From Terebella lapidaria (taxonomy: Eukaryota; Annelida; Polychaeta; Terebellida; Terebellidae), in the NCBI GenBank assembly GCA_949152475.1, contig OX424555.1, forward strand, positions 97,373,515-97,437,514: a stretch of 64,000 bases of DNA, in the 5' to 3' direction. Below the pieces are notes generated by a model that saw nothing but the letters and a program-made list of their open reading frames with translations, was not told the DNA's origin and did no database searches. Positions within the stretch are counted from its first letter, which is position 1. Each line of letters begins with the position of its first letter. Shown piece after piece: positions 10,832 through 58,193 of the stretch. The position numbers were made by a program, and so were the translations under genes.

Positions 10832-11055
10832 TCAGGCCTTTTCAATGACCAGATAGGATTCGAAGAAGAAAACCGCATGCTTCTCTGGTGCGGCCGTGAT
10901 CTTGTCCTCGATCTTCTTCCACACTTGCTCCGAGAGTCGTGACTTCTCCTCCTCAGAACGCGCCTTGTTCATGGCTTGCAGATACTCCGAGTTCCCCCAG
11001 CGACGACAGTCAAGGACGAATCTCTGTGCGTGCGCCCTAGCGGCTGGTGATCCGG
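10832..11055 (-). CDS. Gene A exon 9 (terminal)
   Basis: 224 bases, from acceptor TTACAG to stop TGA. It encodes RRWGNSEYLQ, EEEKSRLSEQVWKKI and the final ESYLVIEK-A, which correspond to the RxWSN, SxEER and VIEK landmarks at the C-terminus of the SABATH family. It starts in phase 1. The matching exon of gene B is identical in length. Confidence 0.88.
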
Positions 11056-14000
11056 CTGTAATGGGCAACATATACTAAACATGCTAAATGTAACTCAATA
11101 TCAAATGGTCACACTTCGGTGAGCATAACATACTTTTGAAGGAAACAAATTTCCATTAGGCATCACGTGGTGAGTATGAACATGCGGCATTTTGTGCTAT
11201 TTTGACCACTGAAACGATTCCCGGTTGCTGGCTTTCTTCAACACATTTGTTTTTTCACATCAGAGCATTCAAGATATTTCCTCAAAAACCTGGCCATGGT
11301 CTCTCAAAATTGCATACTGCGGGGGGCTTCACTCACACAAAAATATGATGCGATTTCCATATTGCATTTTTTAGATATTGCTCACGAAATGGCTCAATAT
11401 CATCCTTAATGGAATAAAAATACATTCCATGCATATACAGCCTACTTGATAATCGTTTTTGACAGTTATTCCCTATTCACTTCAGGCACATAGTGGAAAC
11501 AACTACGTTTCACACACTGATGAAGTCTGTTTGCTCTAAATATGAGTGGTTTGTCGGGCTCCCAAGGATTCTTTTTAGGAATTCTATTGTCAGCAACAAA
11601 ATCTTGTCTATCGAGGGCTAGAGGATATAGCACTGAATATATATCAGGGGCATTATTATTTATATATATATCTATATACACTCATACGTAGATACAATGA
11701 CTATAGAAGATATCACGTGATGATGATATCGCCTTTGTATTCGTTTGCCAATCAGAATTTCCACAAACCTTTATCGCTGCCGGAAGTCCACGCAGTCCAG
11801 TGACGACATGGGTTGTCCACCTCCCTACACAAATGTCAACAATGGTAATTCATTCCTAAGGAGAACGTGGCCATTCCAATATTTTGTCATACAAAAATAC
11901 GAAATAATAAAACAAATATGGATGAAATGGAGAAAAATGTTAGGCTACAGAAAGCATGTTGTTCATGAGACCATACATTTAAACGCAGAAGTCTAAACTT
12001 ATCAAGAGAAAAGTAGTATAAATAAATGCAGAAAGGGATATTTTAAACATAACACTGATTAACATTTTCTTAGGAAGAGTTCTCATAGTAATAAATTCCT
12101 AAAATATATCCATTTCTCGATGGTATTTTATTCACAAAACAGTACACTACAGTACATCAAATAAAACATCAGCATCATTAAATCATTATATTCATAAACA
12201 TCTAGCATTGATAAACATCTAGCATCATTAAATCAGATGGGCCCTACATTAGGGTGGTCCTTTTTTCAACTTTTTATTTTCAACACTCTCACCCTACCAA
12301 TGTGTTGGAATGGTCAAGATAACATTTTAAGCAGACTTACAGGAAATACATGGTTATTTAGAGGTAGCTCAAGGGCTTTCAAAATTGGTCTGTGTAACTA
12401 TATTTCGCATATTTTTAGGGCATTATGAGACCACAATATTTTTGGTGTGATTGTCACTCATGACTCACTTCCATGGAACCATTCATTGCTCATTGAGCTG
12501 TAATAGCCAAAAATATGGATATATTACTGCAGTGTTGTGGATGTTGTTATCAGTAATCGAGCTACATAATGTATCTGAATCAATTCCTACAGCGCTGACC
12601 ATGTTATGGAAAAGTCAATGGAGGAGACTACCCAAGATGGGGGCCTACAAAATATGACTATGAGCTAATGTGAATAAAAAAATAGATATTGAATTTGCTT
12701 TTTATGGAGGTTTTTGTATTTTTGCTGTGGCCATGATCTAAATTTGATTGTTTATCTGTTACATGTAGTTCATACCAATACTCTGACCAGTGGCACATCT
12801 GAATTATTATACATTTATCTACATTCATTTTTGTTCATGATATGATATTGTAACGGATTTGAGGGTGTTCCCAAATTTCCCCCAAGGTATTTCGTACAGA
12901 ATTCACACGGTATACAGTTAAAGAGAGTATTCATTAAATATACAGGTGTTGTTTCGTTAATGACAATTGATTACGGTTACATATTTGAGGCATCAGAGAG
13001 GCGGTCCGGCTTAAAACTTAGTATGTTTTCACACGGTTGAGAAGGATCCAACCGTGGAAAGTTGGATAATGGACCCTGTTTTGTTTGCTCGGAATACTTA
13101 ATACTGGGTATTGATTCCACGTCTATCCACCGGAGTACAAAAACGTCAAACTGCATAAATTTCTAAAGGTCATGTGATCGGTCTCTGTTTCGGTTTAAAA
13201 GGTGACGTGGCAGCCACTGATTTTTCTAGCATATTTTCTAAAAAGCCGGAAAAATCAGTGTTGTCCTAGGTGCCCGACTCACAATGAGTCGGGCACGTGA
13301 CACTCGGTTCCTTGTGTATTTAAGCCCTCGATTTCGGTGGTTCAGTGAAGTTGGTGTTGTGACGTCGATCAGTGCAGACCCATCTTTCAGAGCTGAGTAC
13401 TCCGTATTACGGCTAGGTCATGCAGATTATTTGAAATTACATCTTTCGGCTGTATCCGGCTGTAAATATAAAGCTGAAAACATTATCCGAGTTATTTTTT
13501 AAGAATGATAAAGTATCGGTAATGCAGAGTAAAGAGAAACAAAGGAAAAGATATACAAAGTTAGCAGTTGGTTAAGATAAAGCTGATAACGTCTGACGGT
13601 GGTCCAGAAACCAGATCATCAAAGAAGAAGGCGGAGACGTCCAGAGACGGGAGCGACGGAGACGGTTGCAGAGACGGAAGCGACGGAGCGATTGTAGAGA
13701 CGGAAGCAGAAACGAGGCCGGATTCTATATTTCAGGTGCAGTTGCAGAGTGCAGTCGGTGACGATTGGAGGTCCGATCCAGACCACGTTACCAACCCTCA
13801 GAGACCTCTGACTGAGAATCAGAGTAGCAGCAGCAGCTGAGAATCTTCCGCCAGCTCCGGCTGACCCCCAGATCCATGACAATATTTTTCTCCATTTTGC
13901 CTCGGTGATTTACTTGGTGAAAAATTTGGTATTTCCTTTGCCAGTAATTGTTTCAAGAGTGGACATCGAAACATTTTGTTTGAGGGAAAGTTCAGTCGCA

Positions 14001-17000
14001 ATTAGCTGTACTTGGCACACCATCATCATATGGTGAAGCTGTTTCTAGCAAATGTATTCAACACTTACATGGACCCAACTTCTGGACATTCAAAAAATTC
14101 CAGTGGCACTGGGAATTCATCGATCCTTTAAATTAAAAAACTGCTGCTGTTGGCGACAGAAATGAAAAGGTCCCTAGCTGATGTCGAACATCCAGTGCTC
14201 TGGTTCGCCCTGACCCAGCTCCGAGATTCTCATTCCAGAGATGACTATAAGGAGATGCTGGAGCTCATAATGAAACTTCTTGATGAAACTCCTGCTCGTA
14301 GTGTGCAATTATTGGAACCAGGTGTCATGCACCATAACCGATGGACGGCAAAGGCTATCTATGCACTCCAGAATACATGTTTAGAGACCAGTTCAAGCTC
14401 ACATGAGGCAGAAGGCTATCTCTATGTATCTGTGTTCATCATAAAAATCTACGTTCAGGCATGGTTTTCTGCTTTTGATGCCATTTCCGCATCTCAAAGT
14501 AACCTCAGTCTTCTCCAATTAAGCTCCAACAATCCATATCCAAGACAGCTTCGAGCAAGTTCGCTGGACACTTGGTATGTCCGTGAATGGTTGGTTGGTT
14601 GGTTTGGCTTTTTTCAACCGTGTTGGTCCAGTTGCTATAACTTGTGATATGGGGAAATCAATGGCAGACACGGACAGCCTAGAGCCAATACCAGAGATCC
14701 GGAGACTTTGTCTACCCAATCTCAAGAAATCTGTTCAAGTGCTTGATATCCCAGTGGTTTTCTCAGTGATTACTGAAATCATAGCACAACAGAGGATTTC
14801 AAGACACACTCAATGTGTTGACAGAACGTCAATAACGACACAGCATAACCAGTTGTCGCTCTCAGTGAAGAACAATACTTTGATCACCGAAAAGTACGAG
14901 TAAGCACAATTCCTGCTTCAAGTTGTTCAGGATTGCAGTAAGCGCAATTCCTGCTTCAGTACGAGTAAGTGCAATTCCTGTTTCAAGTTGTTCCTTCGAG
15001 TTGTTCAGGAGTTGTTCCCAAACAACAACAAGAAGTCCAACTTTGAGGGGTGAGAGCTTTGAAAATCACACTTCGAAAAAATACCCTATTCTAAGGACCA
15101 CCCTACGGCATGCATATGAAGATTAGAAAACAAATGATTATGTGAAATGTGGATCAGTGTAGTAATATATTACTGTCTTCCCACTGGAACCATATGACTA
15201 CATACAAGTCTACAACAATAACTACATAAGAGTACAGCTTTGTTGATACTCGCCTGTACGAGATAAGGCGTACACCAGCCTTGTACCCAGCACCGCCTGG
15301 TTTCATGGGAGCACATGACTCCTCTTCAGTTCGGAAGTAGCCCTTGAGATAGAGCCCCTCATACTCGTCCTATTGGAGGAACTATAAATGTACACATCAA
15401 CCTACTACCAAGTCCAACACTGCCATGCGCCTTTGATGATGACAAACATTCTTTGGAATAGAAAGAGTTCGACCAAATATGTATATCTAAACAGACACTG
15501 CCGTCATCAGGACACAAACTAAGTTGTTTCTAATATAGAATCATTAATCGTATTTTTAAAAAAAATAACAATATCAATATTATTCCCATCGGAATCGTTC
15601 TCGTGCTGATGAATTGCACTTTAAGTTTATAAACAATAAGAACCAACATTTCGCATCTCAATCCTTCTAAAACCAGTAGCTCGCATTCCTCGTGAATAAC
15701 GATACCTTTGTAATTTTGTCTTCTTGCAGCATTTCTCGCCAACAGTCGATCATTACGACATGAAATCCTTTCTCTTCGCGCGGTGATCTCCCACAAAAGT
15801 AGCCGTCTTTAGTAACGCACAGGTTGACTAAACACATCCGGCCACCTTGAGGAAAGAGTCATGTTCAGTGTAAGATTTCATGACTCCCCCCTCTCTATCT
15901 GAATACAGGCCTCTAGAATCTGTACAATCACTGAACGAAGTACACCGGTAACTAGTCATAATACAAGCCGGAATTCATGGCTCATGAGAAAACAATGGAA
16001 GCGGCGATACTGCACATTGAAATTCATGACTTGTCCATTCACCTGGTGCCAGCTCAGCGGCTCGCCTCACTAGGAAGAGGTCCCAGTCCTTCCGGGCCTG
16101 TTCTTTATACCTGGCCGTTTGTTCAGTATTCGTACAGTTCGGGTGAGTCAGTGCATCGTCTAGTGGCCCTGGACTACAACACATCAAGTAGAATTGAAAC
16201 ACGTTTTGTACAGTACAAGACAGGATATTAGAAGGTACTATTTCGAATACGTATAGCTCGGCAAGACATGTCTGCATGTTATTTTGTGTTGGACGAGTGC
16301 CACATGATGGGCAGGAACTTTTCACTCTTCCCGGAGCACCTGACCCTACCTCCATGTGGCCGTGTATATGGATTCGTGAATTCCCTGGATTTGAAACTGG
16401 ATGGCGGAAACTGGATCGTTTCTGAGGACTGGGAATAATTTGGTATTGGTTCCACACGCGAATGTATATTACCAAGGATATCTAACTGCGAAGGTGTCAA
16501 TGGAGAAAACATATATCATATCAGGGCCAAGCTGTGTGTAGCATACGCTAGTGCACCATTTGTGAGAGCAAGTAGCGCAGTGGTTAACAGGTTAAGACAC
16601 TCTCATCGTAACCAGCAGGTTGCTGGGTAAGCCGCAGTGCTGGCATTCTGGTGTTGAATGTCCAGCACCCTTGTGCAAGGTGTTAAAATTTGTCTTGGTG
16701 AACTCAGTCGTATAAACGAGTACCCAATTGGCAGTATTGGTAATTTTACGCACGTCCTGGTCACCTTGCGACGAATGGCAGCCTTATGAAGTCGTCTGTA
16801 TACAGACACCCAATGAGTCAGAATGTGGAAAATTGGTCACATGATTATGACGGGCTTTGAGCATGTCATGCAAGGATAGATGCTGTTATAAAAACTACAA
16901 TTCTTATTAATATGGAATAATATAGATTATTATAATTATTGTACAAATACACCTCACTGAATTAGTGTATGACATTTAATGTTTTGAGTAACACAACTAT

Positions 17001-19952
17001 TCAGGCATACCTCTGGCTGAGCCAGTGTGCGGCCGTGGCTGTGAAGCCCAGGTGAATGGTCCCACTCGGTACTATCTGATTGTAGAAGCTGGTGCCTGAA
17101 GCCGTCACAAAGACGTTGTTGAACTCTGACTTGAACGTTGGTGCATCCAAGAGGCCTAGGTGTTCCAAATAGTGTCGGTTAGTACTTGTGTATCGTGTAT
17201 GTCATTGTTTCGAATATATTCGGTGAGCAAATATGGCAGGATCCATTTTAAGTGGTATTTTGCGAACGTTAATTTTCAACGAATGATATTTCATTGTAAA
17301 TAAATCTGGCGAGTTATGTTTCTGTATTTGTGGGACCGTAAGTGGTGTACAATACCCCCTATATCGCCAAAGTTCCTCGTGTTGAATAATATTATCGTTT
17401 TAATTGACAAACATATCCAGTTTTGACGGAAATTTGACGGAAACAACTCCCGATTTAGAGGGTACACTACTTTGGAGCCTTGTGTCAAGAAATTTGGCAA
17501 TCCTGAAGGTAACAGGCTTGTATAATCGTGACCAGCGACCCTCTGAATAAAATATACGCTGTTTTATAAAGACGAATATGGACAACTTTCAGGCGGGTAA
17601 GGATGGGAAAATGCTGTTGCTAACGTTAAAATTTCCGTCAAATATTTCTCCAATGATAATTGCTATAAGAATTTGCTGGTAATACATATTACATGTACTT
17701 AGATCAACATTGCAAGGGCAATAAAGGTACATTAATTGAACAAATCATTCAAATCAGATTCAAGATCGGGATTCTATGAAAATTTTGTGGCTAAATTTTG
17801 CGAACTCAGATCTGTCATATATCGTCTCACTTTCGCAAACTTTGAAATCAGTCCATGTTTTATTTGCATAACATGTCACGTGACCAACAATGGGCGGGAA
17901 TTTCAGGAAACATGTGGCTATAATATAATTCTCTGTGTAAATCTGTGGAAAGGTGTGTGTTTATTGGTTTAAATGACAACGAACATTTTCCGTCCACGTT
18001 TCTGACGTTCAACACAACATCAAATATCTCCTTGCAGTGAGTTCTGTAAGCTGAATCACCAGTAATAACCTCCGTTTGGTGGGCGATACTATGATATTCT
18101 TCGTAAACGCACATGCTTTGGGCACGTTTGTGAAAGCCAATCACAATTTAGACGTGTCCAATGGTAATTTCTCAGTCCTCCGTGAGAACGTGCGAATAGT
18201 TGACGGAAAGTTGCGAAATGAATCAGTATTTGACAGATTGTAGCTAACGAGTTTGGATATTTGAAGGGAGATTGTGTCACATTACTTTGATATAGAGTAG
18301 AGATAACCAATATGTTTGAAAAATGTATGATTATGTAGTTTTGCACTTTGAAAAACTCAAAAAGATTTAAAAAGCTGCAACTGTATTGATACTCAGTATG
18401 ACACACGCATCTCACGTGAGAATATTTATGACGGAAATGTTGCTAATGTGAAAGTAAAATTTGACAGACACTCGCAATCTCTGATAGATTCAGTAAATAA
18501 CATCATACAATCCTCTATTTTGTTTTTAAAAAAACAATATGTTTGACCTTTGCCTGTTTCTATAAATTTCCCTTATCAAAACTGATAAAATGACCATATA
18601 TTGAAGCACTATGTTGTTGTGAACGAATAATATTATTTGATGGATGTGTTGTGAATGATGTTTTTTTTGACAGATACGTTGTGAATGCTCATTCCATATG
18701 ACATATGCATCTCACGTGAGAATATTTATGACGGAAATGTTGCGAACGTGATATTGTGAACGTGATAATGAATTTCCGTCAAATTTCCACCGTTCGCAAC
18801 GTGATTTGCATCAATTGTTTTTCTGCAAGTGCAATTTGTGTACAATATTATGTGTTGAGATAATATCTGAGATACACTCACGGATACTTGATACTTGGTT
18901 GGCAAGAAAAATACATTATGGTGATGTTTATACAACATTATTAAAATATGGGATTTGACAAAAGAAACAGGTTTCCGTCAACGTTTTAAGGCATCTCCTT
19001 TTTCGGAGATTTTCACACATAATATTAATGCACGATTTTTCCCCTACATGGTATCTTGGAAAGGACAACTCATGTTTGTTTTTTCTAACATTCATTTCCA
19101 GTGAAACTGCAGATAAAAACTAGTTCCGTCAAATAATTTGTCAAAGTTTGCACTAGAAATATCTTTCAAAAACAAGCGTATATCCGAAAATAGATGTGTA
19201 ATTCAGCTCAGATTTTTGTGCGTGTGGTATTCCTGGGTCATACACTTATCGAAAACAGGTTCATTCTTCACATATCACGAGATTTAATTTTTGAGGAAGA
19301 CGGGAGTGAAATGTTGTGCTTAACGTGGATTCTGCCATATGGTTTTATTTCTGTTTTTTCTATTTTAATTTATTTGAGAATTAGGAAATGTCATTGAATT
19401 ATTCATTAGTAGTTGAGTTGTTCGAATGCCGCAGTCCAAAGATGTACCTAAATGTACTTTGGAGTAAAGTACATTCAAAACATGTCATAGAAATAAGCAA
19501 CACATGAAAATATTGAAGACGCCATTATTGCCTTTCCATGTTTTTCGTTAGTCAGACGGTTTCTATCATAGACACTATAAAATTATGTTTACATTGACGA
19601 TATATATATACAAATATTCACCAACCATGAACACGGAGAAACAAGGACTTGAAGTCGTTGATTGGTTGATCATTGTAGATGACGTGCACCTCTTGCTCTT
19701 CACCATAGAGCTGCTTCACTTTCTCTGGACGATTATGTGCAATATTAATGTTATAATTTTTTGATAATTGTTCGCCGTTTGCTGTGTATTATTCAATACG
19801 ACATGAACATTTCCACCACAAGAACATCGATGACATGTGACCATTTTACGTACGTATGCATTGCGTGATGAGCTGCATTGAAGTCCCTCCATCCGCCGTT
19901 CCATAGTCGCAAATGGTGAACGCTCCTTCGACCCTTCTGAATGGTATGGACT
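10832..19952 (-). CDS. Gene A: SABATH-type SAM-dependent carboxyl methyltransferase
   Basis: Eight exons on the minus strand (19,952-19,854; 19,724-19,626; 17,155-17,011; 16,173-16,043; 15,845-15,706; 15,369-15,254; 11,824-11,769; 11,055-10,832) join in phase to about 336 codons ending in TGA. What is seen: motif I DYGTADGGTS (SAM binding), YNDQPINDFKSLF, SGTSFY, AHWLS, DWDLFL, GGRM and a RRWGNS...YLVIEK C-terminus, in the order of Methyltransf_7 proteins. The known family reaction is transfer of a methyl group from SAM to the carboxylate of a small molecule, in the cytosol. The conserved Trp of HWLS contacts the substrate carboxylate in plant members. The substrate here is unknown. Family length is usually 350-390 residues, so an N-terminal exon of about 30-50 residues is missing. 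It was not found between 19,953 and 32,000. Introns are GT-AG except the GC-AG intron 7. The reading frame is unbroken, and gene B is a close paralogue. Confidence 0.87.
11769..11824 (-). CDS. Gene A exon 8
   Basis: 56-base exon between TGTGTAG and GTTTGT. It encodes EVDNPCRHWTAWTSGSDK, matching the VxxPCxxxW segment of the family. This short exon is only in frame if intron 7 uses the GC donor at 15,253. The alternative GT donor would bring a stop codon. Confidence 0.85.
11825..12249. other. Gene A intron 7, part 3' of the transposon insertion
   Basis: Non-coding. It shows patches of similarity to gene B intron 7 (51,427-52,010), for example the CATAGTAATAAATT stretch. A small internal repeat of ATAAACATCTAGCAT lies at about 12,195-12,230. 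No other feature. Confidence 0.6.
12250..15105 (+). mobile_element. Unclassified TIR DNA transposon in gene A intron 7
   Basis: The element is bounded by 13-bp inverted repeats, TAGGGTGGTCCTT at 12,250-12,262 and AAGGACCACCCTA at 15,093-15,105. Removing the 2,856 bp leaves an intron of about 570 bp, close to the 584 bp of gene B intron 7. Plus-strand frames carry RDDYKEMLELIMKLL and HHNRWTAKAIYALQ (14,150-14,400). I believe these belong to an uncharacterised protein family seen repeatedly in cnidarian and other invertebrate genomes, apparently element-borne. The frame is broken at several places, including shifts near 14,110, 14,430 and 14,640. No target-site duplication was clear. The element is nested with an LTR-like segment (see next entry). 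Confidence 0.6.
12849..13880 (+). mobile_element. LTR-retroelement-like segment nested in the TIR transposon
   Basis: The segment begins about TGTAACGG at 12,849. About 60 bp at 13,065-13,126 (containing GGAATACTTAATACTGGGT) recur in inverted orientation at 42,157-42,215 and in part at 50,308-50,337. A TATTTAAG box follows at about 13,315, then a charged, repetitive frame (13,568-13,840). This looks like an LTR plus leader of a fossil LTR element that landed in the transposon. It is broken, its family is undetermined and its right border is uncertain. Confidence 0.4.
15254..15369 (-). CDS. Gene A exon 7
   Basis: 116 bases, phase 0 start after CCAATAG. It encodes GYFRTEEESCAPM and AGVRLISY, equivalent to the YxRTxEE...GLRLVSY part of SABATH enzymes that lines the substrate pocket entrance. 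The donor is CAG|GCGAGT, a GC-type 5' splice site with otherwise ideal consensus. Confidence 0.87.
15706..15845 (-). CDS. Gene A exon 6
   Basis: 140 bases between CCTCAAG and GTATCG. It encodes GGRMCLVNLCVTKDGYF and DCWREMLQEDKITK, matching the PGGxMVLV strand and the following helix of the methyltransferase fold. Confidence 0.87.
16043..16173 (-). CDS. Gene A exon 5
   Basis: 131 bases between GTTGTAG and GTGAAT. It encodes SPGPLDDALTHP and QARKDWDLFLVRRAAEL, matching the conserved QAxxDWxxFLxxRAxEL helix of SABATH proteins. Confidence 0.88.
16562..16915 (+). repeat. tRNA-derived SINE in gene A intron 4
   Basis: The head has A-box-like AGTAGCGCAGTGGTTAA, and a B-box-like region should follow about 40-50 bases later but is diverged. 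The body contains ACCCAATTGGCAGTATTGG and CAGACACCCAATGAGTCA. The 3' part (GGGCTTTGAGCATGTCATGC, TTATAAAAACTACAA) resembles L2-type tails. A second, better-preserved copy lies on the minus strand at 55,662-55,992. The last third aligns with a fragment at 56,075-56,255 in the equivalent intron of gene B. Confidence 0.7.
17011..17155 (-). CDS. Gene A exon 4
   Basis: 145 bases between ACACCTAG and GTATGC. It encodes LLDAPTFKSEFNNVFVTAS, SGTSFYNQIVPSGTIHLGF and AHWLSQ. These match the VFVTGxPGSFY and SSxSLHWLS signatures; the Trp is the residue that contacts the carboxylate in characterised members. Confidence 0.9.
17156..19625 (-). other. Gene A intron 3, rich in TGACGGAAA motifs
   Basis: 2,470-bp intron with no exon, transposon or array that I can name. 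The motif TGACGGAAA, or its complement TTTCCGTCA, occurs at least seven times between 17,423 and 18,980, with near matches at 17,985 and 19,122. A block CATCTCACGTGAGAATATTTATGACGGAAA occurs twice (18,406 and 18,706). The right part (19,380-19,620) is similar to gene B intron 3 at 57,620-57,870. Confidence 0.55.
19626..19724 (-). CDS. Gene A exon 3
   Basis: 99 bases. It encodes KVKQLYGEEQEVHVIYND and QPINDFKSLFLRVH, matching the EVFLNDLPGNDFNxLF signature. The Asp and Asn positions that contact the SAM ribose region in the family are present. Intron 2 before it is only 129 bp. Confidence 0.88.
19854..19952 (-). CDS. Gene A exon 2 (SAM-binding motif I)
   Basis: 99 bases from acceptor TTATTCAG to a phase-1 donor C|GTACGT. 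It encodes SIPFRRVEG and AFTICDYGTADGGTSMQLI, the glycine-rich motif I of class I methyltransferases in its SABATH form. The start in phase 1 means that at least one coding exon lies upstream. Confidence 0.9.
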
Positions 19953-20294
19953 CTGAATAACATGAACATGATTTGGACGGATTCGAATGATTTCAATTTC
20001 TATCATTTCATAGCTCTGTTTCTCTCATCAACTATATCCACAATCACTGTTCTATATTGCAGACACGTCCCAAATGGATATCATTAATGTTGGCGGTGCA
20101 ACGATCGCAAATCCATAGTATCTGCCGACCTTCGTTAGGGGGATACAATAACTCAATTTGCATATAATATTTGTCATTGCCTACTGCTAGCCACAGCCAC
20201 AGCATCAAACAGCAATTCGTGGCATGGGGCTGATGAATACTAAGGCTGGATCTTGCAAAACAAATAGCTCGTAAGCGTTTCACATGAAGATGTT

Positions 20295-21425: not shown

Positions 21426-21439
21426 TTTCTTCTTTGAAG

Positions 21440-22720
21440 TTTCCGGTTCAATCTTTGTGAAATTTTACACAAAAACGCACAAAAATATTTAAAGAGGGAT
21501 GTATTTTTTGTTTGTATTTTTTTGTTTTGTTTTGATTTGTTTTTTTATTCTACGGGTTTTGTTCCCAAAAAAAAATGTCAATATTTATGCTCTATCTTTC
21601 TTTAAGTGTTCTAGAAGTTTACTCCATACTGCTCCCATAATAAAAGAAGAATTGGGTTAAATTCCAAAGTCCAAACGAATTTCAATGGTGAAAAAGTTAC
21701 GACGAAAAATTCTAGAAATCATCGCCCTTCCACAAAAAAAGCTGTTTTGACATTTCATGATAATTGAAGGTCGAATTCAAGGTCACCATTAAAACCGCAA
21801 TATATGATTTTTCATTTGAATGTGCAAATATTTAAAATCTATCTTGAAGTGTTCTAGGAGGTCACTCCATACAGCTACCATTATAAAGCAAATTATCAGG
21901 AAGGCTAAGAAAGTTTATGGAGAATATATATTTTAGATATTAGCCATATTATTACGTGACCTTGAAAATAAGGTCCAAGATCAAATTCAAGATGACAAGA
22001 ATATTCAACATATCTTATTTCCTATATGTCCACAATTGATTATTAAGCTGTAAATTCAATAATAACAGAGAATATCAATTCTGTCGTATGACCTTGAAAG
22101 TGAATCAAAGGTCAAATTATTAAAGGTCATCAGAATATTCGGCATAAATCATTTCCTGTATGTCCACGATTGACTTTCAAATTGTATTGTTGAAAATTAG
22201 TGAGATATTAGCCATTTTGTCATGTGACCTTGAAAAATGAGATCAAAGATGGAATTCGAGGTCATGAGAATATTCAGAATATATCATTTCCTTTATGTAC
22301 ACAATGTATTCCCAATCTGGAAAGTCAACAATAAGCGAGATATTAGCCATTTTGTGCTCTGACTTTGAAAATGAGGTCAAAGGTCAAATGCAAAAATCAA
22401 TCAAGTAAAACATAACTCTTTTCTAAAATATTCTTAGGCCTTTTTGTGCAGAATTTCTGAAAGAATCTAGCATAAACAATAAAGACAAAAATGTGGACGG
22501 ATGACAAACAATGACTACAGACGCAACGCTAGGCCAATAGGTTACCGGACCTAATACATCCTCCTGAAATATTTTTAAGTATTTTTGCTCAAAATTTCAG
22601 AAAACTTTAACTGTATTAATATGCAGATAAATATGTTGACGGACGACAACGGACGATACACGCAACGCCATGCCAATAGGTTATTGGACCAAAGGTCCGG
22701 TGACTTAAACATTCGCTTTA
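21440..22720 (-). repeat. Compound GGTTACC-family repeats, mostly inverted
   Basis: After a short plus-oriented 5' module (21,430-21,560) the sequence reads in minus orientation. A GGTGACC-rich module (21,600-21,900) is followed by about four 140-bp units (21,940-22,410), then the 5' end AGGTTACCGGAC on plus at 22,539. A second inverted 5' end follows at about 22,600-22,706 (AATAGGTTATTGGACC). At least two insertions are joined. Confidence 0.65.
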
Positions 22721-22804
22721 TATGCTTGTAGGACCACCAGGTTTCCAGGTATAAGTCACGTGTTCATAGTGACCGATCTGTTCCTACATCATGTTGTTTT
22801 TTTA

Positions 22805-23410: not shown

Positions 23411-23779
23411 AAATATATTTGGAGATTGGAACACCTCAACGAGTATTTCCCAACAAAACCTTATAAATTGTTTTACTCTAACTAAGCGTCTGGCAGTGTG
23501 CCAATTCCCATGGGCGGTACAAACAAACCAGCGCATGGCCTGTGGCTGTGTACATCTTTAACTACATGCATCGGTATCTGGATAAATGTCTTCTATAATG
23601 TAGAGCATGGACGTAGGTCATGTACACACATTATACAATATACCCTCTAGATATATAAGTATATATGTGTGTGCAATGTTGAGAAGGCTACAGGCCAATA
23701 CAGTAAAAGTTTATTCGCATTACACATTACTGATATATTGCACAGTTAGACAGTACACAATCATTGTGATATATAGCGT

Positions 23780-25130: not shown

Positions 25131-25139
25131 CCCTACGCA

Positions 25140-27215: not shown

Positions 27216-27225
27216 TTACAAAATT

Positions 27226-39345: not shown

Positions 39346-39349
39346 GGAC

Positions 39350-42896: not shown

Positions 42897-43120
42897 TTAG
42901 ACCTTTTCAATGACCAGATAAGATTCGAAGTAGCAGATAGCATGCTTCTCTGGTGCGGCCGTGACCTTGTCTTCGATCTTCTTCCACACTTGCTCCGAGA
43001 GTCGTGACTTCTCCTCCTCAGAACGCGCCTTGCTCATGGCTTGCAGATACTCCGAGTTCCCCCAGCGACGATTGTCCAGGACAAGTTTCTGTGCGTGTGC
43101 CCTAGCGGCTGGTGATCCCG
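42897..43120 (-). CDS. Gene B exon 9 (terminal)
   Basis: 224 bases from acceptor TTACAG to the stop codon. It encodes RRWGNSEYLQ, EEEKSRLSEQVWKKIEDKV and ESYLVIEK-V. About nine of 73 residues differ from gene A. Confidence 0.88.
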
Positions 43121-49100: not shown

Positions 49101-52100
49101 CACTGTGGATAGCTTTCGGCCCACCGTGATATACTGTCCATCTGTTTTCAAAAACATCTGCAACGTTCTTGGCTTTATAGCGACGAAGCTCAAATGCATC
49201 AGTGTAGTTGGGAAGTAGTCCGCTATCACGAAGACGTAGCGATGACCTCTTCTGGTGACCTTGTGGGTATCCAAGATGTCAATCGCTATCTAATCAAAAG
49301 GTGCTCCCGTTCGGAGTTGTGTCAGCGGCAATCTTTCCGGTGGAGGTTTGCCTTTGCGTGACATGCATTGCAGGCAGTGGGCACACCAGCAGGCGACATC
49401 CAGTGCGAGGCTCACCTATAGAAGCAGCGTCTGACTTTTTCAATCATTCTTTGCATTCCGAGGTGTCTTTGAGATCGGCAGTTGGTGCAGAACCAAGGCT
49501 CGAGGAGCGGCGAGCAGGACAGTTCGTACGATGATGTGTCGTGTCGGGTCCAGCTTCCAGATGAGGATTCCATCTTGCAGCGCTAGGAGGTTCCACCTGC
49601 AGACGAGAGTTTTCACCTCCTCACCTTGGCGCACGACTTCTTAGGAAGTAGATTTAGTCTTGTTGGTTACCCATTGGCGTACTTTACCGGCGCTTGGATT
49701 AGCTTGTTGAGCGGGGACGAACTGGAGCAGCCTGCCGAGATCAGTTTGGGCATGACCAGAGGTATCGGATTGTCCATATCCAACTGGGCTAACTCGGCGG
49801 CGGCAAGACCACTGTGATCCCCTGACTGCTTATATACTTCCTTGAAGGTCACATGCCAGAGTCTCGGTTACTTGTGCGGCAGAGCTTGCCGACAGAGCTG
49901 TAACAGTAGCAGGAGCAGCAGGGGTAGTGGCGACAGGTGCTGGAGGGTTCCCTGTAGTGACAGGGGTCGGCGCGCCAACTGGCACTTGTTGGAGCTGTAT
50001 ACCACTCTTCAGAGTGTCGTGTTTGTCAGGGTTGCGGGAGCAGCTGGCGCTGGTGGCTGACTCAACACAGGGGTTGTCAGGTATGTCATCACTTATGGCA
50101 TGGGTCCGCGAGGTCTCGCCAAAGTGTTATCATGCGAAGAGCAGAATAACGTAGCCATTATGCTGATGGTCGTTTGCGCGGTGGGGATGCTGGCGGTCAT
50201 CGCTGACTCGGTCTCCAGGGTCAATCTGCCTCAGCTGGAAAGGAGGTCCTTCAGTAGGCTTTCCGTCACGGTCAACTCGGCAGGCACAATCATGTCGTGT
50301 CAGTAATAGACGTGGAATCAATACCCAGTATTAAGTATTATTAATAACCCAGTCAGTGTTATTGGCGTAACTGACGGTCGAGTTCATCTAGAGATGACTT
50401 TTCGGCTGCTTCTTCCGTTCTTCGGCCAATTGACAAGTTCGGCTGAACCGTGATGTGTACTGGTGGGTGTCCCGTGAGTCAGCAGTCAGCAGCGGGGTAG
50501 TTGTCACGTGACCTACCCCAACCAATCAAAACTGACTATTTCACTGAACATTTTTATGATTGATAACCAATCAGGAACCACCACGTGACAGTATGCATTG
50601 TTCCAAATCCGCCTCGGATTACTTTTACGTAATCACGTATTTTGACCACCAAGGTCTGAATTCAGCTGAAAAGCAACCGGCCCCACCAAAAAATACCCTA
50701 ACTTAAATAAACGTATATACACCTATATGACTTAAATTGATCATATAAGACCTGATGACCGAACAACATCAGGTAACCACGTATATCATTCAACAAACAA
50801 GCATTAAAACTGGCCGAACACTTTTTTCGGTTTAAAATCGCTACAATATGTTTATGTTACATGTTAGTGAATCGTAACATGTAACATCGAACGAGTATAG
50901 TATTGGAGCCTAATCCAATCGTCTTGAAATTTGAGCATGGGAGGAATGACCTCTCGGCTTAAAATGGCATTTTACTACGACCGAAACGAACGTAATACCT
51001 CCCCACTCATGGTGGTAATGAAATTCACACATCATTGAACAAAATCACACAAGGTAGAGCAATTTCTGGTGTAACTCTGGCGAAAAACTTCAGGTTTTAC
51101 AGTATATGAAATTGTCATCTAGTTATGAGATAAAGCATTTTTATCAAGTTTTACTGAAAATTAAGTATCGATCTCAGATTTGAACGGGCAGTTTCTATCG
51201 GATTTCGATGGAAACGAGATATTCCCGAGGCAATGAATTATTCTTTCCGACCCTAATTTTTTTAGAAGATTGAATTGAACCGTTGATATGTATATACACT
51301 ACGACTAAAGAAAGATCTTGTGAACATTGTATTACCTTTAGTTTGATTTCCAATCAGAATTTCCACAAACCTTTCTCACTGCCGGAAGTCCACGCTGTCC
51401 AGTGCCGACATGGGTTGTCCATCTCCCTACACAAATGTCAACATTGAGATTTCATTTTGACGCAGAACGTGGCGATTCCAGTACGAAAATACGCAATAGT
51501 ACAACAAAATATAGGTAAAATGTATATGAGTTAGGGCACATAAAGCGTGTTGTCCGTGAGACCATACATTTGGACGCACATGTCTAAAATTATCAAGAGA
51601 AAATATAAATAAAAGCAGAACGTGTATAATTGTAATGTTGATATTTTATACAAAATACTGAGGACATGGAAGAGTTTTCATAATAATAAATTAAATTAAA
51701 TATCCGAACTTTTCAATGATATTAACTCATTTTGATATGCAAGATATGCGCGCGCAGATGGAGGTCCTATACATCTACTGCGATTTTCATTTACTTCAAT
51801 GAAGACAATGACACTGTGGTGCAATGGATTCGGCAACAGCAAGCTCTATCATGTTACGGACCAAATGGAACGACCCATGAACATGCATTGTTTATGTTTT
51901 CAACTCTTAAACTAGTGTTCTATGCTAGTGGTAATTATTTTAGCTCATGTTGATTCAACAATATAAAGACAACGTTGACTACATACAAGTACAAATCTAC
52001 TGATACTCGCCTGTACGAGAGAAGGCGGACACCGGCCTTGTACCCAGCACCGCCTGGTTTCAAGGGAGCACATGACTCCTCCTCGGTTCGGAAATAGCCC

Positions 52101-55100
52101 TTGAAATAAAGCCCCTCATACTCGTCCTATTGCAGGAAGTATAAATGTACACATCAACCTACTACCAACACTGCCATGCGCTTTTCATGATGACAAACAG
52201 TCTTCGGAATAGAACGAGAAGCCGGACCAGATATTTTTATCTGAAGAGACACACACTGCCGTTGTAAACGGAATGGTAGTCCCAGTAATACAAGTTCGCA
52301 GGACTACCATTCCTAGAAATGGTAATTCAGTGGACTTCCTATCCTAGGAACAGTGATCCGCTGGGAATGTAGGTCCTAGGTTAGGAGTAGTCATCCGGGT
52401 CGGACTTCTGTTCCTAGGTACCGACGTCCTTGGACTCCCATTCCTGGGGTATGGGGTACCATCTTGTTAAATGCAATATCAATGCATCACCATTGACAAA
52501 AGTTTCATTGAACATGACGTGAGCGCTGCTTTGACATTAATTAGTCAGCAATATTTATACATGTCTTCACCTTATGCTGCCGTACTGATGATTACGTGGT
52601 GTAACCACAACCTTAACAACCAATGAACGTACAGGTAACTGAGCATTGGTTATACTTTGTATATATGCCCGGCTAAAACATATGCTATAGATAATAGGAC
52701 CTGCATGCCTAGGACCTGGGTCCTAGGACTGTAGGTCCCTGGACTACTATTCCTGCGGATTACCCTTCCTTTTACACCGTCATCAGGGCACAAAGCGTGT
52801 ACATAAAGTTGTTTCTAATACAGAATCGTGTTTGGAAAAAATACCACCAATAATATTCCCGTCCGAATGGTTCTCGTGTTGATGAATTGCACTTTGATGT
52901 TTATAAACAATAAGAGCCAACATCTCACATCTGAATCGTTCTAGAACCATGAAGATACCTTTGTAATTTTCTCTTCTTGCAGCATTTCTCGCCAACAGTC
53001 GTTCATTATGGCAACAAATCCTCTCTCTGCGCGCGGCGATCTTCCCCAATAGTAACCTTCTTTAGTGACGCACAGGTTCACTAAACACATTCGGCCACCT
53101 GGATGGAAGAGTCGTGTAGTGGTTCACGCTGTCTGTTACAGATCACGCATCAAATACACATATTAAGACTTTTTACAATAACTGTAGAGAGAACACCGGT
53201 AACTTGTCACACTAGCGATCTTACGTTAATACGGTTACGGATCCGTGAGTTCACAACTGAATATATAATCCACCAATGGGCTAGCGAGAAGAGGACGGTC
53301 ACGGTCTGATGGCGTTCGTCGTAACCGTCATGTCTCTATTTTCAATGACTGCTGAGGACTGAATATGTAAATGCCGCAAGACTTTGCTATCACGCGTGGC
53401 AAACTGTTTAATTTCTGACTGAACTTACATCTTTATGAAAACAACGCAAGAGTAGTGAGTAGACGGATACGGACACGCTTATAGGATATATTTCCCACAC
53501 ATCATACAAAAGTTGAACTAAAGTTGAATGTTTGTGAAGGAAAACATGCTTTTCTGTCAAATAACTGAAACATATATTTTTTCTAAAATTATAAACAAAA
53601 TGTTATACGAAGCATTGCTGATTTATTGTGATTTATTGTGATAACAGACTCAAGTCAGAGGTGAGGGATGTTGGCACGTTGTTACAGTACTAACTAATTA
53701 TGGCCACGTGGGTTCCCTCAAACTTTGAATGTGTGTGTCAATGACGAAAACATATTCGTAATTTTACTCGTGGAAACGGACGCATGTAAAGTATAACATT
53801 TCTGAGGGTGATTTTGGAGTGGCGCAAATTTTGGACTTGCAGAAGTACCACTTTTTCTATGATCATGGTCGAAAATGACATGTTTTTATCAATATACAAA
53901 TATGCGGTTTATAAATGTAGCATAATTTCCGTTAGGAACCAGCCCCAAAACGTATCCCCAGTGCATACACTCATCACGCGTCCCCTTCCATGCTTTAGAT
54001 TGCCAACATTTTCAATGGATGTTTCAAAATTTATAGAAAACTGCCATTTGACTTTATGGTGTAGTATGCCAATGTGCACGATGATATTTTTACCCATTAC
54101 TAAATCGCGGTCAAAAAGGAGTTTATTCAGGGGATTTTGCTCTTTGTTTTAGCGTTCTTCAATAGTGCAGTTGTTTGTATCGGGTGATCATTCCCGGGCT
54201 ATGCACGAGTTGTGCTCAGGTGAAATTGCCTCATGCATATATTCGTCACATTAGTAAAGTCTCCTCATTGAAAATAGAGACACGACGGTCACGACGAACG
54301 CCATTAGACCGTGACCGTCATTTTCTCGCTGCCCGATTGGTTGATTATATATTCAGTCGTGAATCCACGCATCCGTAACCGTATTAACGTAAGATCGCTA
54401 TTCCAACTGGAAGTCACGCCTATGGAAGCGGCGATCACTGATTTTCAAAGTCACAAGTTTGTCCATTCACCTGGCGCCAGCTCAGCGGCTCGCCTCACCA
54501 AGAAGAGGTCCCAGTCCTTCCGGGCTTGTTCTTTATACATGGCCGTCTGTTCAGTATTCGTACAGTCTGAGTGAGTCATTGCATCGTCTAGTGGCCCTGG
54601 ACTACAACACAATAAGTAGAATTGAAACACGTTTTGTACAGTACAAGACAGCATGTTGGAAGATACTATTTCAGATATAGCTCGGCAAGACATGTCTGCG
54701 TGTTTCTTTGTGTTGAACGGGTGCCACAAGATGGGCAGGAAATGTTCACTCTTCCCAGAGCTCCATGTTGCCTTGTATAAGGATTCAAGATAGAATCACC
54801 GGGAAGTACCTTCGGTTTCTGGGGCCCCATGTCGCGAGCAGTGTATTCGTTCTACAGCCACCCTACTTGTTCTCAGTGAAAGCACTTTATGGCCTTCACA
54901 TGCTATAGATTAGTTTAGAGCACATAATCCTTCGATGGGGTCCAAAACCAAGTAATATTTATGCCATATTCAACTAAAGTGATCATGCATTTATGGGTGT
55001 AAAGTAATGCTTGATGATCAGACCCAGGAGAGCTCTGGAATGCTTATTAGGAACGCGAATATCTCCAGCTTCTGGGGCCATTCAGCTGAATGGCCCCAAA

Positions 55101-58100
55101 CCCCCGGCCGACAGGGGCTTGCTTCAGCTCGCTTTGCAACATTTCACAACTGGGCCTCCCCTCAAAATCCTGGATCTGCCCCGAATCAGCCATGCAAAAC
55201 TCTTTAGGGGGATCGAAAATGGACCAAAGGAAACCTCTAGAACACACCACTCGGCATACATATCCCTTCAGCTCCTTGGGCCCTCAAGTAGTTCCCAGGC
55301 CCTCCGCCTTCACTACCTCGCTTCGCGACATTTCACATCTTGCCCCTCCTTCAGAACTCTGGATCCGCCTCAGAACATGCATTCATAAACTCTCCAAAGC
55401 CATGGAAATTGGACCAAGGTGAACCCTAGAGCACGCCAGTGGGGATGCATAATCCTTCAGCATATGGGGCCCTTGAGCGGGCCCCAGACCCCCGGCGGAC
55501 AGGGGCTCGCTTCGCTCGCCGCTCTATCGATCAAGGGTTCCCCCCCCCCTCCCCAAAATCCTCTACCCGCCACTGATGGCGGACTCGTTTCTGAGAGCTG
55601 GGAATAATTTGGTATTGGTTTCACATGTGCGTGTACGATATCCAATTGCGATGGTATTAATAATCATCTTTGTAGTTTTTATATAGCACTTTTCCATGCA
55701 TGGCATGCTCAAAGCGCTTTACAATTATTACCCCGATATTCTGGCCTGAAACCACTTTCCAACTCACAGACAGTTACCTCATATGGCTGCCATTTCGGTT
55801 CAAGGTAACTAGGCATATGTACAATTACCAACACTGCCAATCGGGTACTCACTTAGCGGCCGAGTGAACCGAGACACATTGTGATACACACGGTGTTAGA
55901 CAGATTGCACAACAGCGCCAGCATTGCGGCTCGAACCACCAACCTGTTGGTCACGAGTCGAGTGCTTTAACCACTGCACTACCTGCCCTCACACCCACCC
56001 CGGAAGATGCATTCATAACTCAATGGATAATACAATTATCAGCAGTTCTGTATCAGGGACAGGCCGTGTATAAAATATCATACTCAGTCGTATGAACGAA
56101 TACACAATTGGCAGTTTTGGTAATTGTACGCAATACCTTTGTGCCGTTGTCACCTTCGGCGAATGTCAGCCTTATGTAGTCGACTGTCTACAGACACCCA
56201 ATGAGTCAAAGTGTGGTTTCAGGAGAATTGGTCACATGATTGTGACGCGCTTATATTTTTTTTACAAACACCTCATTGAATCAGTGTATGACATTTAATG
56301 TTATCACTAACACAACTATTCAGGCATACCTCTGGCTGAGCCAGTGTACGGCCGTGGCTGTGAAGCCCAGGTGAATGGTTCCACTCGGTACTATCTGAGC
56401 GAAGAAGCTGGTGCCTGAGGCCGTCACAAAGACGTTGTTGAACTCGGAGTTGAAAGTTGGTGCATCCAAGAGGCCTAGGTGTTCCAAATCATATGGGTAA
56501 TAGTTGTGTATCATATCATTGGTTCGAATATATTTAACCTATTGGCATGGCGTTGCGTCCGTCGTCGTCTGTCGTCGTTGTCCGTCTACATTTTTATTTT
56601 TATCTTTTATCTTACATCTTTTATCTTCAAGTTTACGATGGAATCTTTCTGGAATTTTGCACGATAATTCCTAAAAATAGTTCAAGGGGAAGTATTTTTT
56701 AGTTTTCTCAATTTTTCGTTGACTTTTGACGGAAAAAAACAATTCTTTGAAGGTCGTTTCCTCAAAATCTGTCAGATAACTTTTTTTACTAATTCCTGCA
56801 TAAGAATCCTAATATGTACCTTTGTGATGTGTATAAGCTTGAATTGCTCGAAGTATGCCATTTTGGCCTAAATGGGACTTTCCCATGTTAAATTATCCTA
56901 TGTTTCATAATGGGACACATTATAACTAATATCTCACTTAATATTGAGATTAGAGATTAGGAATCAATTGGGAATATATAGGAAATGATATATGCTGAAT
57001 ATTCTAGTGACCTTGAATATGACCTTTGATCTCATTTTCAAGAACAATATGGCTGATATCTTGCTTATTATCAACTTTACAGCTTAGGAATAAATTGTGG
57101 ACATATAACAATTGATATATGCTGAATATTCACATGACCTTAAACTTGACCTTTGACCTTGTTTTCAAAGTCAAAGCACAAAATGGCTTATATCTTGCTT
57201 ATTATCGATTTTACAGCTTAGGAATCCATAGTGAACATGTAGGAAATGATATATGCTGATTATTGTCATGACCCTGAGTTTGACCTTTGGCCTTTTTTCA
57301 AGGTCAAAGCACAAAATGGCTAATATATCGCTTTTTATGAATTTGACTTTGACCTTTGACCTCATTTTCAAGGTCACAAGACAAAATTGTTAATATCTCT
57401 ATTATTATTGAATTTACAGCTTAGCAATCCATTGTGGACATATGGGAAATGACATGTTGAATATTCTCGTGACCTTGAATTTGACCAGTGACCTTATTTT
57501 CAAGGTAGAGCACTAAATGGCAACCGGGACGAAATGATTAATACATAAAATATGAAACAAATAATGTCCGGTAACCTTTCTTAGCCTTTGGGCTAAATTT
57601 TTGTTCCTACGCTTTTGTACTATAATTGAAAATTAGGGAATTTCAGTGAATTGTTTGTTAATAATTGAGTTGTTCGAATTCCATTGTCCAGACATGTGCC
57701 TGACTGTACCTTGAAATAACTCTCAAAACATGTCACAGAAACATGCGACACGTGATCTCTATAGTTATTGATTCTCCATCATTGCCTTCCCATACATATG
57801 TTTTGTCAAGCTGTGTTTCTATCATAGAAGCTAGTCAATTATGTTCGATATATAGATACAAATATTCACCGACCATGAACACGGAGGAACAAGGATTTGA
57901 AGTCGTTGATTGGTTGATCATTATAGATGACGTGCACCTCTTGCTCTTCACCATACATCTGCTTCACTTTCCCTGGACGATAATGTACGATATTTATAAT
58001 ATAATTTGTTGATAATTGTTCGCTGTTTGCTGTGTATTATTCAATACGACATGAACATTTCCACCACAAGAACACCGATGACCATTTTACGTACGGATGC

Positions 58101-58193
58101 ATTGCGTGATAAGATGCATTGAAGTCCCTCCATCCGCTGTTCCATAGTCGCAAATGGTGAACGCTCCTTCGCCCCTTCTGAATGGTATGGATT
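42897..58193 (-). CDS. Gene B: SABATH-type carboxyl methyltransferase, paralogue of gene A
   Basis: Exons on the minus strand: 58,193-58,095; 57,972-57,874; 56,474-56,330; 54,601-54,471; 53,098-52,959; 52,126-52,011; 51,426-51,371; 43,120-42,897. All eight have the same length and phase as in gene A, with no stop or shift. The motifs are the same: DYGTADGGTS, YNDQPINDFKSLF, SGTSFF (Phe where gene A has Tyr), VHWLS, GGRMCLVNL, DNPCRHW, YLVIEK. Differences from gene A are mostly conservative and cluster in exon 6 (about 10 of 46 residues). The gene is longer because intron 8 is 8,250 bp (713 in gene A) and carries a fossil LTR element, and introns 5 and 6 carry MITEs. The first coding exon is not in the window to the right of 58,193, or lies beyond 64,000. 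SAM-dependent methylation of a small carboxylic acid is inferred. The substrate is unknown. Confidence 0.87.
43539..43632. repeat. Long hairpin with perfect 23-bp arms
   Basis: Arms at 43,539-43,561 and 43,610-43,632 are exact inverted copies (CAAGCCCAAATAAATC...). The loop holds a second palindrome, TCATGTGTAACACATGA. It may be the centre of a small foldback element. The function is unknown. Confidence 0.85.
44290..50345 (-). mobile_element. Fossil Ty3/Gypsy-like LTR retroelement region, broken
   Basis: Integrase-type segments are legible on the minus strand at about 49,640-49,090 (zinc-binding-like HLQCMSRKGK area and the THKVTRRGHRYVFVIADYF core strand). A VYLDMLKPYEG end of pol lies near 48,780. 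An LTR-like match is at 50,308-50,337. Regions at 47,575-47,895 (Pro/Ala-rich) and 44,323-44,667 (coiled-coil-like) may be other parts. It is an old copy with many breaks and no intact gene. The left border and whether 44,290-47,100 belongs to it are uncertain. Confidence 0.6.
45248..46575. repeat. 664-bp tandem duplication
   Basis: 45,248-45,911 and 45,912-46,575 are almost identical copies (for example a GATTGGGCACA versus GAATGGGCACA change, and GTGGACTC versus GTGGGCTC). The near identity shows that the duplication is recent relative to the decayed surroundings. The frames inside are simply repeated and are not recognised as genes. Confidence 0.93.
51371..51426 (-). CDS. Gene B exon 8
   Basis: 56 bases between TGTGTAG and GTTTGT. 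It encodes EMDNPCRHWTAWTSGSEK. The frame requires the GC donor of intron 7, as in gene A. Confidence 0.85.
52011..52126 (-). CDS. Gene B exon 7
   Basis: 116 bases after GCAATAG. It encodes GYFRTEEESCAPL and AGVRLLSY, followed by CAG|GCGAGT, the same non-canonical GC donor as gene A. Confidence 0.87.
52263..52777. mobile_element. 515-bp MITE in gene B intron 6, CCTAGG-rich
   Basis: The ends are TGTAAACGGAATGG and, on the complement, GTGTAAAAGGAAGGG, with CGT on both sides (52,260-52,262 and 52,778-52,780). The orthologous site in gene A (ACTGCCGTCATCAGG near 15,500) is empty, which proves an insertion. The sequence carries five CCTAGG palindromes (52,343; 52,375; 52,413; 52,708; 52,722) and many GGTAGTCC/TGGACTACC variants. 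It has no ORF. A 3-bp duplication is compatible with CACTA- or Harbinger-like elements. Confidence 0.8.
52959..53098 (-). CDS. Gene B exon 6
   Basis: 140 bases between CATCCAG and GTATCT. It encodes GGRMCLVNLCVTKEGYY, RGFVAIMNDCWREML and QEEKITK. It is the most diverged exon between the paralogues. Confidence 0.87.
53215..54398. mobile_element. 1.2-kb MITE with ~145-bp terminal inverted repeats in gene B intron 5
   Basis: Arms 53,215-53,360 and 54,255-54,398 are inverted copies starting GCGATCTTACGTTAATACGG, each flanked by TA. They contain GACGGTCACGGTCT and ATGGCGTTCGTCGT. Intron 5 of gene A is only 197 bp and lacks it, so the insertion followed the gene duplication. There is no transposase frame inside. 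TA flanks suggest a Tc1/mariner-type target, unproven. Confidence 0.82.
54471..54601 (-). CDS. Gene B exon 5
   Basis: 131 bases between TTGTAG and GTGAAT. It encodes SPGPLDDAMTHS and QARKDWDLFLVRRAAEL, as in gene A. Confidence 0.88.
55060..55580 (+). repeat. Three diverged ~195-bp tandem copies of a MITE-like unit
   Basis: Copies near 55,070, 55,270 and 55,465 share TTCAGCT(C/T)(C/A)TGGGGCC, CCCAGACCCCCGGC, GACAGGGGCTCGCTTCGCTC and AAATCCTGGATC(T/C)GCC. They end in the GGATCCGCC-type motif seen elsewhere in the window. They are absent from the matching intron of gene A. Confidence 0.7.
55662..55992 (-). repeat. tRNA-derived SINE, inverted
   Basis: Read on the minus strand the head is GGTAGTGCAGTGGTTAAAGC (A-box-like), then GGTTCGAGCC (B-box), a body with ACCCGATTGGCAGTGTTGG, and the tail ATTGTAAAGCGCTTTGAGCA to GCTATATAAAAACTAC, an L2-type 3' end. 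It has a clear pol III promoter layout but cannot fold as a functional tRNA along its full length. Confidence 0.82.
56075..56255 (+). repeat. SINE fragment shared with gene A intron 4
   Basis: Contains ACACAATTGGCAGTTTTGG, CAGACACCCAATGAGTCA and AATTGGTCACATGATTGTGA, matching 16,720-16,850 at the same distance from exon 4. The insertion therefore predates the duplication. The tRNA-like head has been lost. Confidence 0.75.
56330..56474 (-). CDS. Gene B exon 4
   Basis: 145 bases between ACACCTAG and GTATGC. It encodes LLDAPTFNSEFNNVFVTAS, SGTSFFAQIVPSGTIHLGF and VHWLSQ. Confidence 0.9.
56540..57600 (+). repeat. GGTTACC-family repeat in gene B intron 3
   Basis: Starts inside the 5' module (AACCTATTGGCATGGCGTTG) without the first ~25 bp, has about four 140-bp units (56,930-57,530) and ends GTCCGGTAACCT at 57,566-57,577 with the TTAGCCTTTGGGCTAA tail. 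It is missing from gene A intron 3, so it inserted after the duplication. Confidence 0.8.
57874..57972 (-). CDS. Gene B exon 3
   Basis: 99 bases. It encodes KVKQMYGEEQEVHVIYND and QPINDFKSLFLRVH. The donor is CATG|GTCGGTG. Confidence 0.88.
58095..58193 (-). CDS. Gene B exon 2 (SAM-binding motif I)
   Basis: 99 bases after TTATTCAG. It encodes SIPFRRGEG and AFTICDYGTADGGTSMHLI. The phase-1 start requires an upstream coding exon, which is not visible in the repeats to the right. Confidence 0.9.

Follow-up and report, generated by a model that had tools for sequence, protein, structure and literature searches.

Two nine-exon genes and their surroundings

The DNA analyzed here, referred to as the window, is a stretch of 64,000 nucleotides from the polychaete Terebella lapidaria (contig OX424555.1 of assembly GCA_949152475.1, positions 97,373,515 to 97,437,514 of the forward strand) containing two paralogous genes, A and B, of the SABATH (Methyltransf_7) methyltransferase family. 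The two are located on the minus strand and share an identical architecture of nine exons, each equal in size between A and B, encoding products of 376 residues that are 89% identical, with 11% of residues differing. An earlier note, made from the letters alone, had described a pair of complete genes with eight identically sized exons and products of about 336 residues. The sizes match exactly (99, 99, 145, 131, 140, 116, 56, and 224 bases in both genes) but are those of exons 2–9; exon 1 was missed in both genes, and that of gene B lies outside the window, so that neither gene was complete as read. The outer coordinates given in that note, 10832 and 58193, are accurate: the stop codon of gene A ends at the former, and exon 2 of gene B begins at the latter.

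Gene A runs from 25564 down to 10832. Exon 1 (25444–25564), whose sequence starts MSEPHSHIPFGEPGAGTYSKNATT..., holds the start codon, and a search of the T. lapidaria genome with this exon returned 17 matches including itself. The S-adenosylmethionine (SAM)-binding motif I, DYGTADGGTS, is encoded by exon 2 (19854–19952), the acidic post-I loop YNDQPINDF by exon 3 (19626–19724), and SGTSFY followed by HWLSQ, which contains the Trp151 equivalent, by exon 4 (17011–17155). The remainder comprises exons 5 (16043–16173), 6 (15706–15845), and 7 (15254–15369, followed by a GC donor), the 56-base exon 8 (11769–11824), and exon 9 with the stop codon (10832–11055). In gene B, exons 2–9 occupy 58193 down to 42897 of the window: exon 2 (58095–58193), exon 3 (57874–57972), exon 4 with SGTSFF and HWLSQ (56330–56474), exon 5 (54471–54601), exon 6 (52959–53098), exon 7, again with a GC donor (52011–52126), exon 8 (51371–51426), and exon 9 with the stop codon (42897–43120). 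Its exon 1 lies 17 kb beyond the end of the window, on the same contig (97454614–97454494 of the contig, approximately 81100–80980 in window coordinates), placing it about 23 kb from exon 2 compared with 5.5 kb in gene A. The motifs were located directly, and comparison of the A and B regions gave the matching conserved blocks; exons 1 and 3 were found through paralogues elsewhere in the genome, and the last exon of gene B through a search with that of gene A.

Splice sites fall at homologous positions across the eight full-length models built for the family in this genome (A, B, C5b, g1, g2, g5, g6, and g8, the last five from contig C14). Acceptors are AG in 58 of 59 cases, the exception being the last exon of g2, where an in-frame AG lies three bases downstream, and donors are GT in 57 of 59; the remaining two are the GC donors of intron 7 in A and B. 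Among further paralogues, GC also occurs at this site in D and C5c, and C5b has GTGAGA. Because C5b carries GT exactly at the GC position, intron 7 can be considered a real GC–AG intron, and for the same reason a GT donor four bases downstream, which would preserve the frame if paired with an AG also shifted by four bases, was rejected. Contamination as a source of the genes was likewise rejected, given nine exons with introns on a contig of 100.8 Mb. The host proved to be an annelid, in line with the earlier description of an animal genome. Pfam identifies cox1 on a mitochondrial contig of the assembly, where it reads sensibly with the invertebrate code, and nad3, nad2, cox2, atp8, and cox3 were recognized by eye in its flanks, all on one strand; such a gene order is the ground pattern of annelids. 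For the annelid erythrocruorin linker domain (PF16915), all seven listed matches exceed the cut-off.

Transposons and repeats are found around and inside the genes, bearing out the heavy transposon load noted previously. A non-long-terminal-repeat-type retrotransposon with an intact frame of 968 residues lies between A and B (32491–35397, plus strand; Exo_endo_phos 9.3e-7, RVT_1 3.5e-30), next to fragments of another retrotransposon (30240–32143, minus strand). A tandem repeat with a 134-base unit forms several arrays (4839–5703, 21935–22393, 27267–28753, 56926–57338, and 60194–62201), within introns of both genes as well as in their surroundings. Weak matches below cut-off to TNP-like and Plavaka transposases occur at 37959–38618 and 47127–47744, both on the minus strand, and a search of the window with Rfam at gathering thresholds gave no match. 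Elsewhere in the assembly, contig C417 carries a second cox1 (44633–46450) with a long insertion, in an open reading frame roughly 700 residues long; it looks like that of a ciliate mitochondrion, so that a symbiont or contaminant may be present in the assembly.

Family membership, selection, and paralogues

Against the Pfam Methyltransf_7 profile, with a cut-off of 29.8 bits, gene A scores 117.1 bits (E 1.2e-33) and gene B, without exon 1, 119.9 bits (E 1.7e-34). These scores exclude a chance match and confirm the proposal of a SABATH gene. Methyltransf_7 is the only Pfam family to exceed its cut-off, on which basis other methyltransferase families were rejected; a YolD match of gene B falls below cut-off. 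Solved structures matched at E values up to 0.01 comprise 11 distinct sequences, all SABATH-superfamily enzymes by name, and searches of NCBIfam with A, g8, and the Pseudomonadota protein L085 returned no match. Membership of A and B in the SABATH/Methyltransf_7 family is firm.

The ratio of nonsynonymous to synonymous substitution rates (dN/dS) between A and B is 0.256 by the NG86 method (bootstrap range 0.152–0.409) and 0.286 by YN00. On the basis of this ratio of about 0.26, which is not near 1, both genes look constrained, and the suggestion that selection has kept both frames open holds for what appears to be purifying selection on A and B alike. Ratios were obtained for 13 of the 28 pairs of full-length models (0.086–0.256 by NG86, 0.121–0.313 by YN00); the remaining 15 pairs, all between subfamilies, yielded no dS and hence no ratio.

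The earlier description of a tandem pair stands insofar as two intact paralogues are present, but they are not a mere pair. A search of the whole assembly (761.6 Mb in 438 contigs) located the catalytic exon at a minimum of 17 loci on three contigs, four on C1 (the contig of the window), five on C5, and eight on C14, and thus at least 14 loci besides A, B, and the copy designated D. Besides A, B, and D, C1 carries a locus at 31.05 Mb. The degenerate D lies on the opposite strand to the left of the window, some 62 kb away from where gene A ends. The loci form two subfamilies that are 43–48% identical: the window type (C1 and C5), which has an extra intron, and the C14 type, in which exons 7 and 8 are fused as one exon. 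Twelve copies were modeled, eight of which are intact. The intact copies are the full-length models already listed, to which the dN/dS estimates and the trees are confined; C5c, D, g3, and g7 were modeled and left out of both analyses, and g4, C5a, C5d, C5e, and the 31.05 Mb locus lie outside the set of models. The frames of g2 and g5 extend three and two codons, respectively, beyond the modeled end to a stop, and the last acceptor of g2 is shifted.

We consider it likely that both A and B function, as part of an extensive annelid family of SABATH enzymes that methylate small molecules with SAM and that sit on a branch shared with some Pseudomonadota. The damaged copies speak against this interpretation: in D the beginning of exon 4 and the final part of the last exon are missing, g3 has a stop in frame, g7 has a frameshift, g4 was found without exons 1–3, and C5c has its exon 1 in two pieces separated by about 100 bases (C5 positions 8332646–8332898). 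Such breakage, together with the repeats and transposons in and between the genes, would be in keeping with A and B being silenced, nonfunctional duplicates. We regard that reading as highly improbable given open frames of 376 codons, intact splice sites, and the dN/dS of 0.26. The number and turnover of the genes fit what might be expected of specialized metabolism.

Bacterial relatives and tree position

The likening of A and B to the plant enzymes that methylate salicylate, jasmonate, and benzoate turned out to be misleading, as the nearest relatives to emerge are bacterial. When bacterial and archaeal genomes were scanned with an alignment of the annelid proteins plus the mycobacterial fatty acid O-methyltransferase (FAMT), 38 loci were obtained, nearly all actinobacterial and most of them mycobacterial by title; 12 of these loci were used in trees and all 38 in a table of active-site residues. 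A search for the Methyltransf_7 family recovered it in four of 398 Pseudomonadota genomes, one of which was the genome at the center of the search, and the proteins of the other three (L083, L085, and L084) align end to end with the annelid ones. With a C14-type protein as the query, 13 of 385 genomes of one Pseudomonadota class were matched (best E 1.5e-75), 11 of them at 36–40% identity over nearly the full length, one by a partial protein, and one by a distant protein at 28% identity. Gene A is 28–33% identical to 12 Pseudomonadota sequences and 18–29% identical to six plant sequences, and the corresponding values for g8 are 35–38% and 19–26%.

In a tree of 40 sequences, in which eight annelid and six plant rows are the only eukaryotes and the partial L097 is omitted, the annelid and 12 Pseudomonadota sequences form one clade with support of 100/99. 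Eleven FAMT-type sequences are separate (99/99, rising to 100/99 once one Acetobacteraceae and one Acidobacteriaceae sequence join them), as are the six plant sequences (100/99). The annelid and Pseudomonadota clade holds at 100/98 in a tree of 38 sequences built without the two longest branches, L098 and plant 2EG5. By the approximately unbiased (AU) test, a clade of annelids plus plants is disfavored, costing 25.6 log units (p-AU 0.003, or 0.010 without the two long sequences), and a clade of annelids plus Actinobacteria is rejected at a cost of 117 log units (p-AU 4e-35). The bacterial-type kinship of the annelid genes is firm, and the trees place A and B on a branch shared with some Pseudomonadota, outside the plant and mycobacterial fatty-acid branches.

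We propose that the annelid lineage would have acquired the gene from bacteria and subsequently gained introns, and that duplication would then have amplified it for specialized metabolism, perhaps in signaling, defense, or detoxification. Several observations temper the proposal of transfer from bacteria. The 12 bacterial sequences group apart from the annelids with modest support (77/75 with 40 sequences, 85/84 without the two long ones), so that the annelid genes are not nested within the bacterial ones and transfer may have run in either direction. The groups submitted to the AU test were named after the tree had been seen, which makes the p-values softer than they look, and several annelid sequences have a letter composition unlike the rest, softening them further. 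In addition, the Pseudomonadota sequence L057 falls on the FAMT side and L098 with neither side, indicating that Pseudomonadota hold several lineages of the family.

Vertical descent from a SABATH gene common with plants would account for the shared Pfam family, of which plants are the best-known holders, and a tree with just six plant sequences as its eukaryotes beyond the annelids leaves some room for it. The AU result against an annelid-plus-plant clade and the higher identities of both A and g8 to Pseudomonadota than to plants make it very unlikely.

Four bacterial loci (L099–L102) were inspected for their gene neighborhoods. Two lie beside a tripartite ATP-independent periplasmic (TRAP) transporter, whose DctP solute-binding proteins match at 1.4e-49 and 2.8e-27 and whose membrane parts were recognized by eye; a malate/lactate-type dehydrogenase (Ldh_2) adjoins a third, and one lies next to a protein of the fatty-acid-hydroxylase family. 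These neighbors give a weak hint of organic acids.

Active site, predicted chemistry, and known systems

Active-site residues were compared across the eight annelid proteins in the numbering of plant salicylate methyltransferase (SAMT), in which Gln25 and Trp151 are the two contacts to the substrate carboxylate. All eight proteins have the motif I Asp-x-Gly and the Asp98 loop, with equivalents of Asp57, Asp98, Phe130, and His150, and all but one have Ser129 (Thr in g8) and Trp151 (Tyr in g6). A and B each keep Ser129, Phe130, and Trp151. His150 is present in all 20 annelid and bacterial-subfamily sequences, and the plant Tyr147 is replaced by Thr in seven of the eight annelid proteins (Ser in g5) and in all 12 bacterial ones. 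The SAM-binding motif is preserved, as had been claimed, but of the two carboxylate contacts A and B keep only Trp151, and the claim of preserved carboxylate contacts fails for Gln25, which is gone from every annelid protein. A SAM-dependent, small-molecule methyltransferase function for A and B is well supported by homology.

Carboxylate binding of the standard kind is called into question at both contact positions. Position 25 is Cys in six annelid proteins, Ser in one, and Tyr in one, and Trp151 is lost, with Tyr in its place, not only in g6 but in nine of the 12 sequences of the bacterial subfamily. The bacterial subfamily has Ala at position 25 throughout (12/12). By comparison, Gln was found in all three of the plant carboxyl enzymes inspected and in 31 of 37 FAMT-type sequences (the other six have His or Arg, maybe through misaligned N-termini), and Thr, Ser, or Asn in the four plant purine N-methyltransferases examined; the plant structures 2EG5 and 3B5I were left out of this comparison. 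With the carboxylate-holding Gln25 gone, we make no commitment to a methyl ester product, and the term carboxyl methylation is not firm for A and B. Salicylate in particular is weakly disfavored as a substrate by His at position 150 in place of Met. PMC10853004 describes the SAMT clamp as Met150–Met308 but a His-to-Met change as unlikely in the historical shift to salicylate, which is why His150 counts only weakly in this direction.

We predict that SAM would be bound through the DYGTADGG motif and the DQP/NDF loop, and that a small substrate, probably a small organic acid or related heterocycle, would be set against it within a pocket bordered by the SGTSF and HWLS segments. Methyl transfer would then proceed by proximity and desolvation, the mode of SABATH catalysis given in a review (PMC9822479) and likewise stated for mycobacterial FAMT and SAMT in another article (PMC13223930).

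The absence of Gln25 raises the alternative that this branch methylates a small heterocycle on nitrogen or another atom outside a carboxylate, as do the plant caffeine and theobromine synthases. The residue is missing from the annelid, bacterial-subfamily, and plant purine N-methyltransferase sequences alike and retained in the plant carboxyl enzymes and most FAMT-type sequences. However, the plant N-methyltransferases nest within the plant clade, making the common loss convergent and weak as evidence, and the TRAP transporter at two of four bacterial loci and the Ldh_2 dehydrogenase at a third hint at organic acids instead. We view N-methylation as possible but doubtful. Another candidate role, which we consider unlikely, is that one or more of the genes encode a farnesoic-acid methyltransferase making methyl farnesoate, an annelid hormone. 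Methyl farnesoate is described as a brain hormone of Platynereis in PMC5127642 and again in PMC9181382; candidate methyltransferases discussed in a syllid study include none clearly homologous to arthropod FAMeT or JHAMT (PMC6350857); and a clade of farnesoic-acid methyltransferases exists among the plant SABATH enzymes (PMC10853004). Set against this, 17 or more loci, some of them degenerate, are not what would be expected of a single hormone enzyme, and Gln25 is lost. Moreover, PMC9181382 records JHAMT in amphioxus and echinoderms, as well as genes of the sesquiterpenoid pathway in molluscs, and an ordinary enzyme may make methyl farnesoate, JHAMT-type genes not having been sought in this genome.

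A more elaborate scenario would have an annelid ancestor capture a bacterial SABATH gene independently of plants and amplify it to at least 17 loci, with a re-shaped pocket that has given up the usual way of holding carboxylates and some member carrying out the methyl-transfer step of annelid sesquiterpenoid hormones or pheromones. Taken as a whole we hold this to be decidedly unlikely. The interpretation of A and B as working members of a large annelid SABATH family is the one carried forward here.

In plants, SABATH methyltransferases produce hormones and scents. An extensive family in animals, with an altered active site and on a distinct branch of bacterial type, would mean that such chemistry arose independently in animals. 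Among the results listed by our searches of the open-licence literature we found no account of a SABATH gene from an annelid or any other animal, although one may exist elsewhere, and the word methyltransferase does not occur in the main text of a compendium of metazoan gene transfers (PMC13342648). The enzyme making methyl farnesoate is not identified in the pertinent parts of two annelid papers, and the annelid SABATH family offers candidates to fill this gap.

Among known systems, the plant SABATH carboxyl enzymes (SAMT 1M6E, LAMT 6C8R, and GAMT 8WWQ) resemble the annelid proteins in the motif I Asp, Asp98, Ser129/Phe130, and Trp151 but form a separate clade, own Gln25 and Tyr147, and match at best at E 4.7e-17. 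The plant caffeine-type N-methyltransferases (6LYH, 6LYI, 8UZD, and 2EFJ) belong to the same superfamily and have also lost Gln25; the two represented in the tree (6LYH and 8UZD) fall inside the plant clade, so that the loss looks independent. The mycobacterial FAMT (PDB 5F2K), of the same superfamily, is the best solved relative by sequence (E 1.6e-28), yet it is only 28–29% identical, belongs to the other clade of 11 sequences (99/99), keeps Gln25, and has Gln at position 150. Closest among the relatives found are the proteins of the Pseudomonadota subfamily (L084 and L086–L096), for which we found no characterized member and of which the one scanned (L085, identical to L096) is that lacking an NCBIfam match. 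They differ from the annelid genes in being intronless, in having Ala25, and in having Tyr for Trp151 in nine of 12 cases. Like the annelid proteins, they have lost the plant Gln25, with Thr at position 147 and His at position 150, and 11 of the 12 match the C14-type protein at 36–40% identity over nearly its full length, in keeping with the joint clade supported at 100/99.

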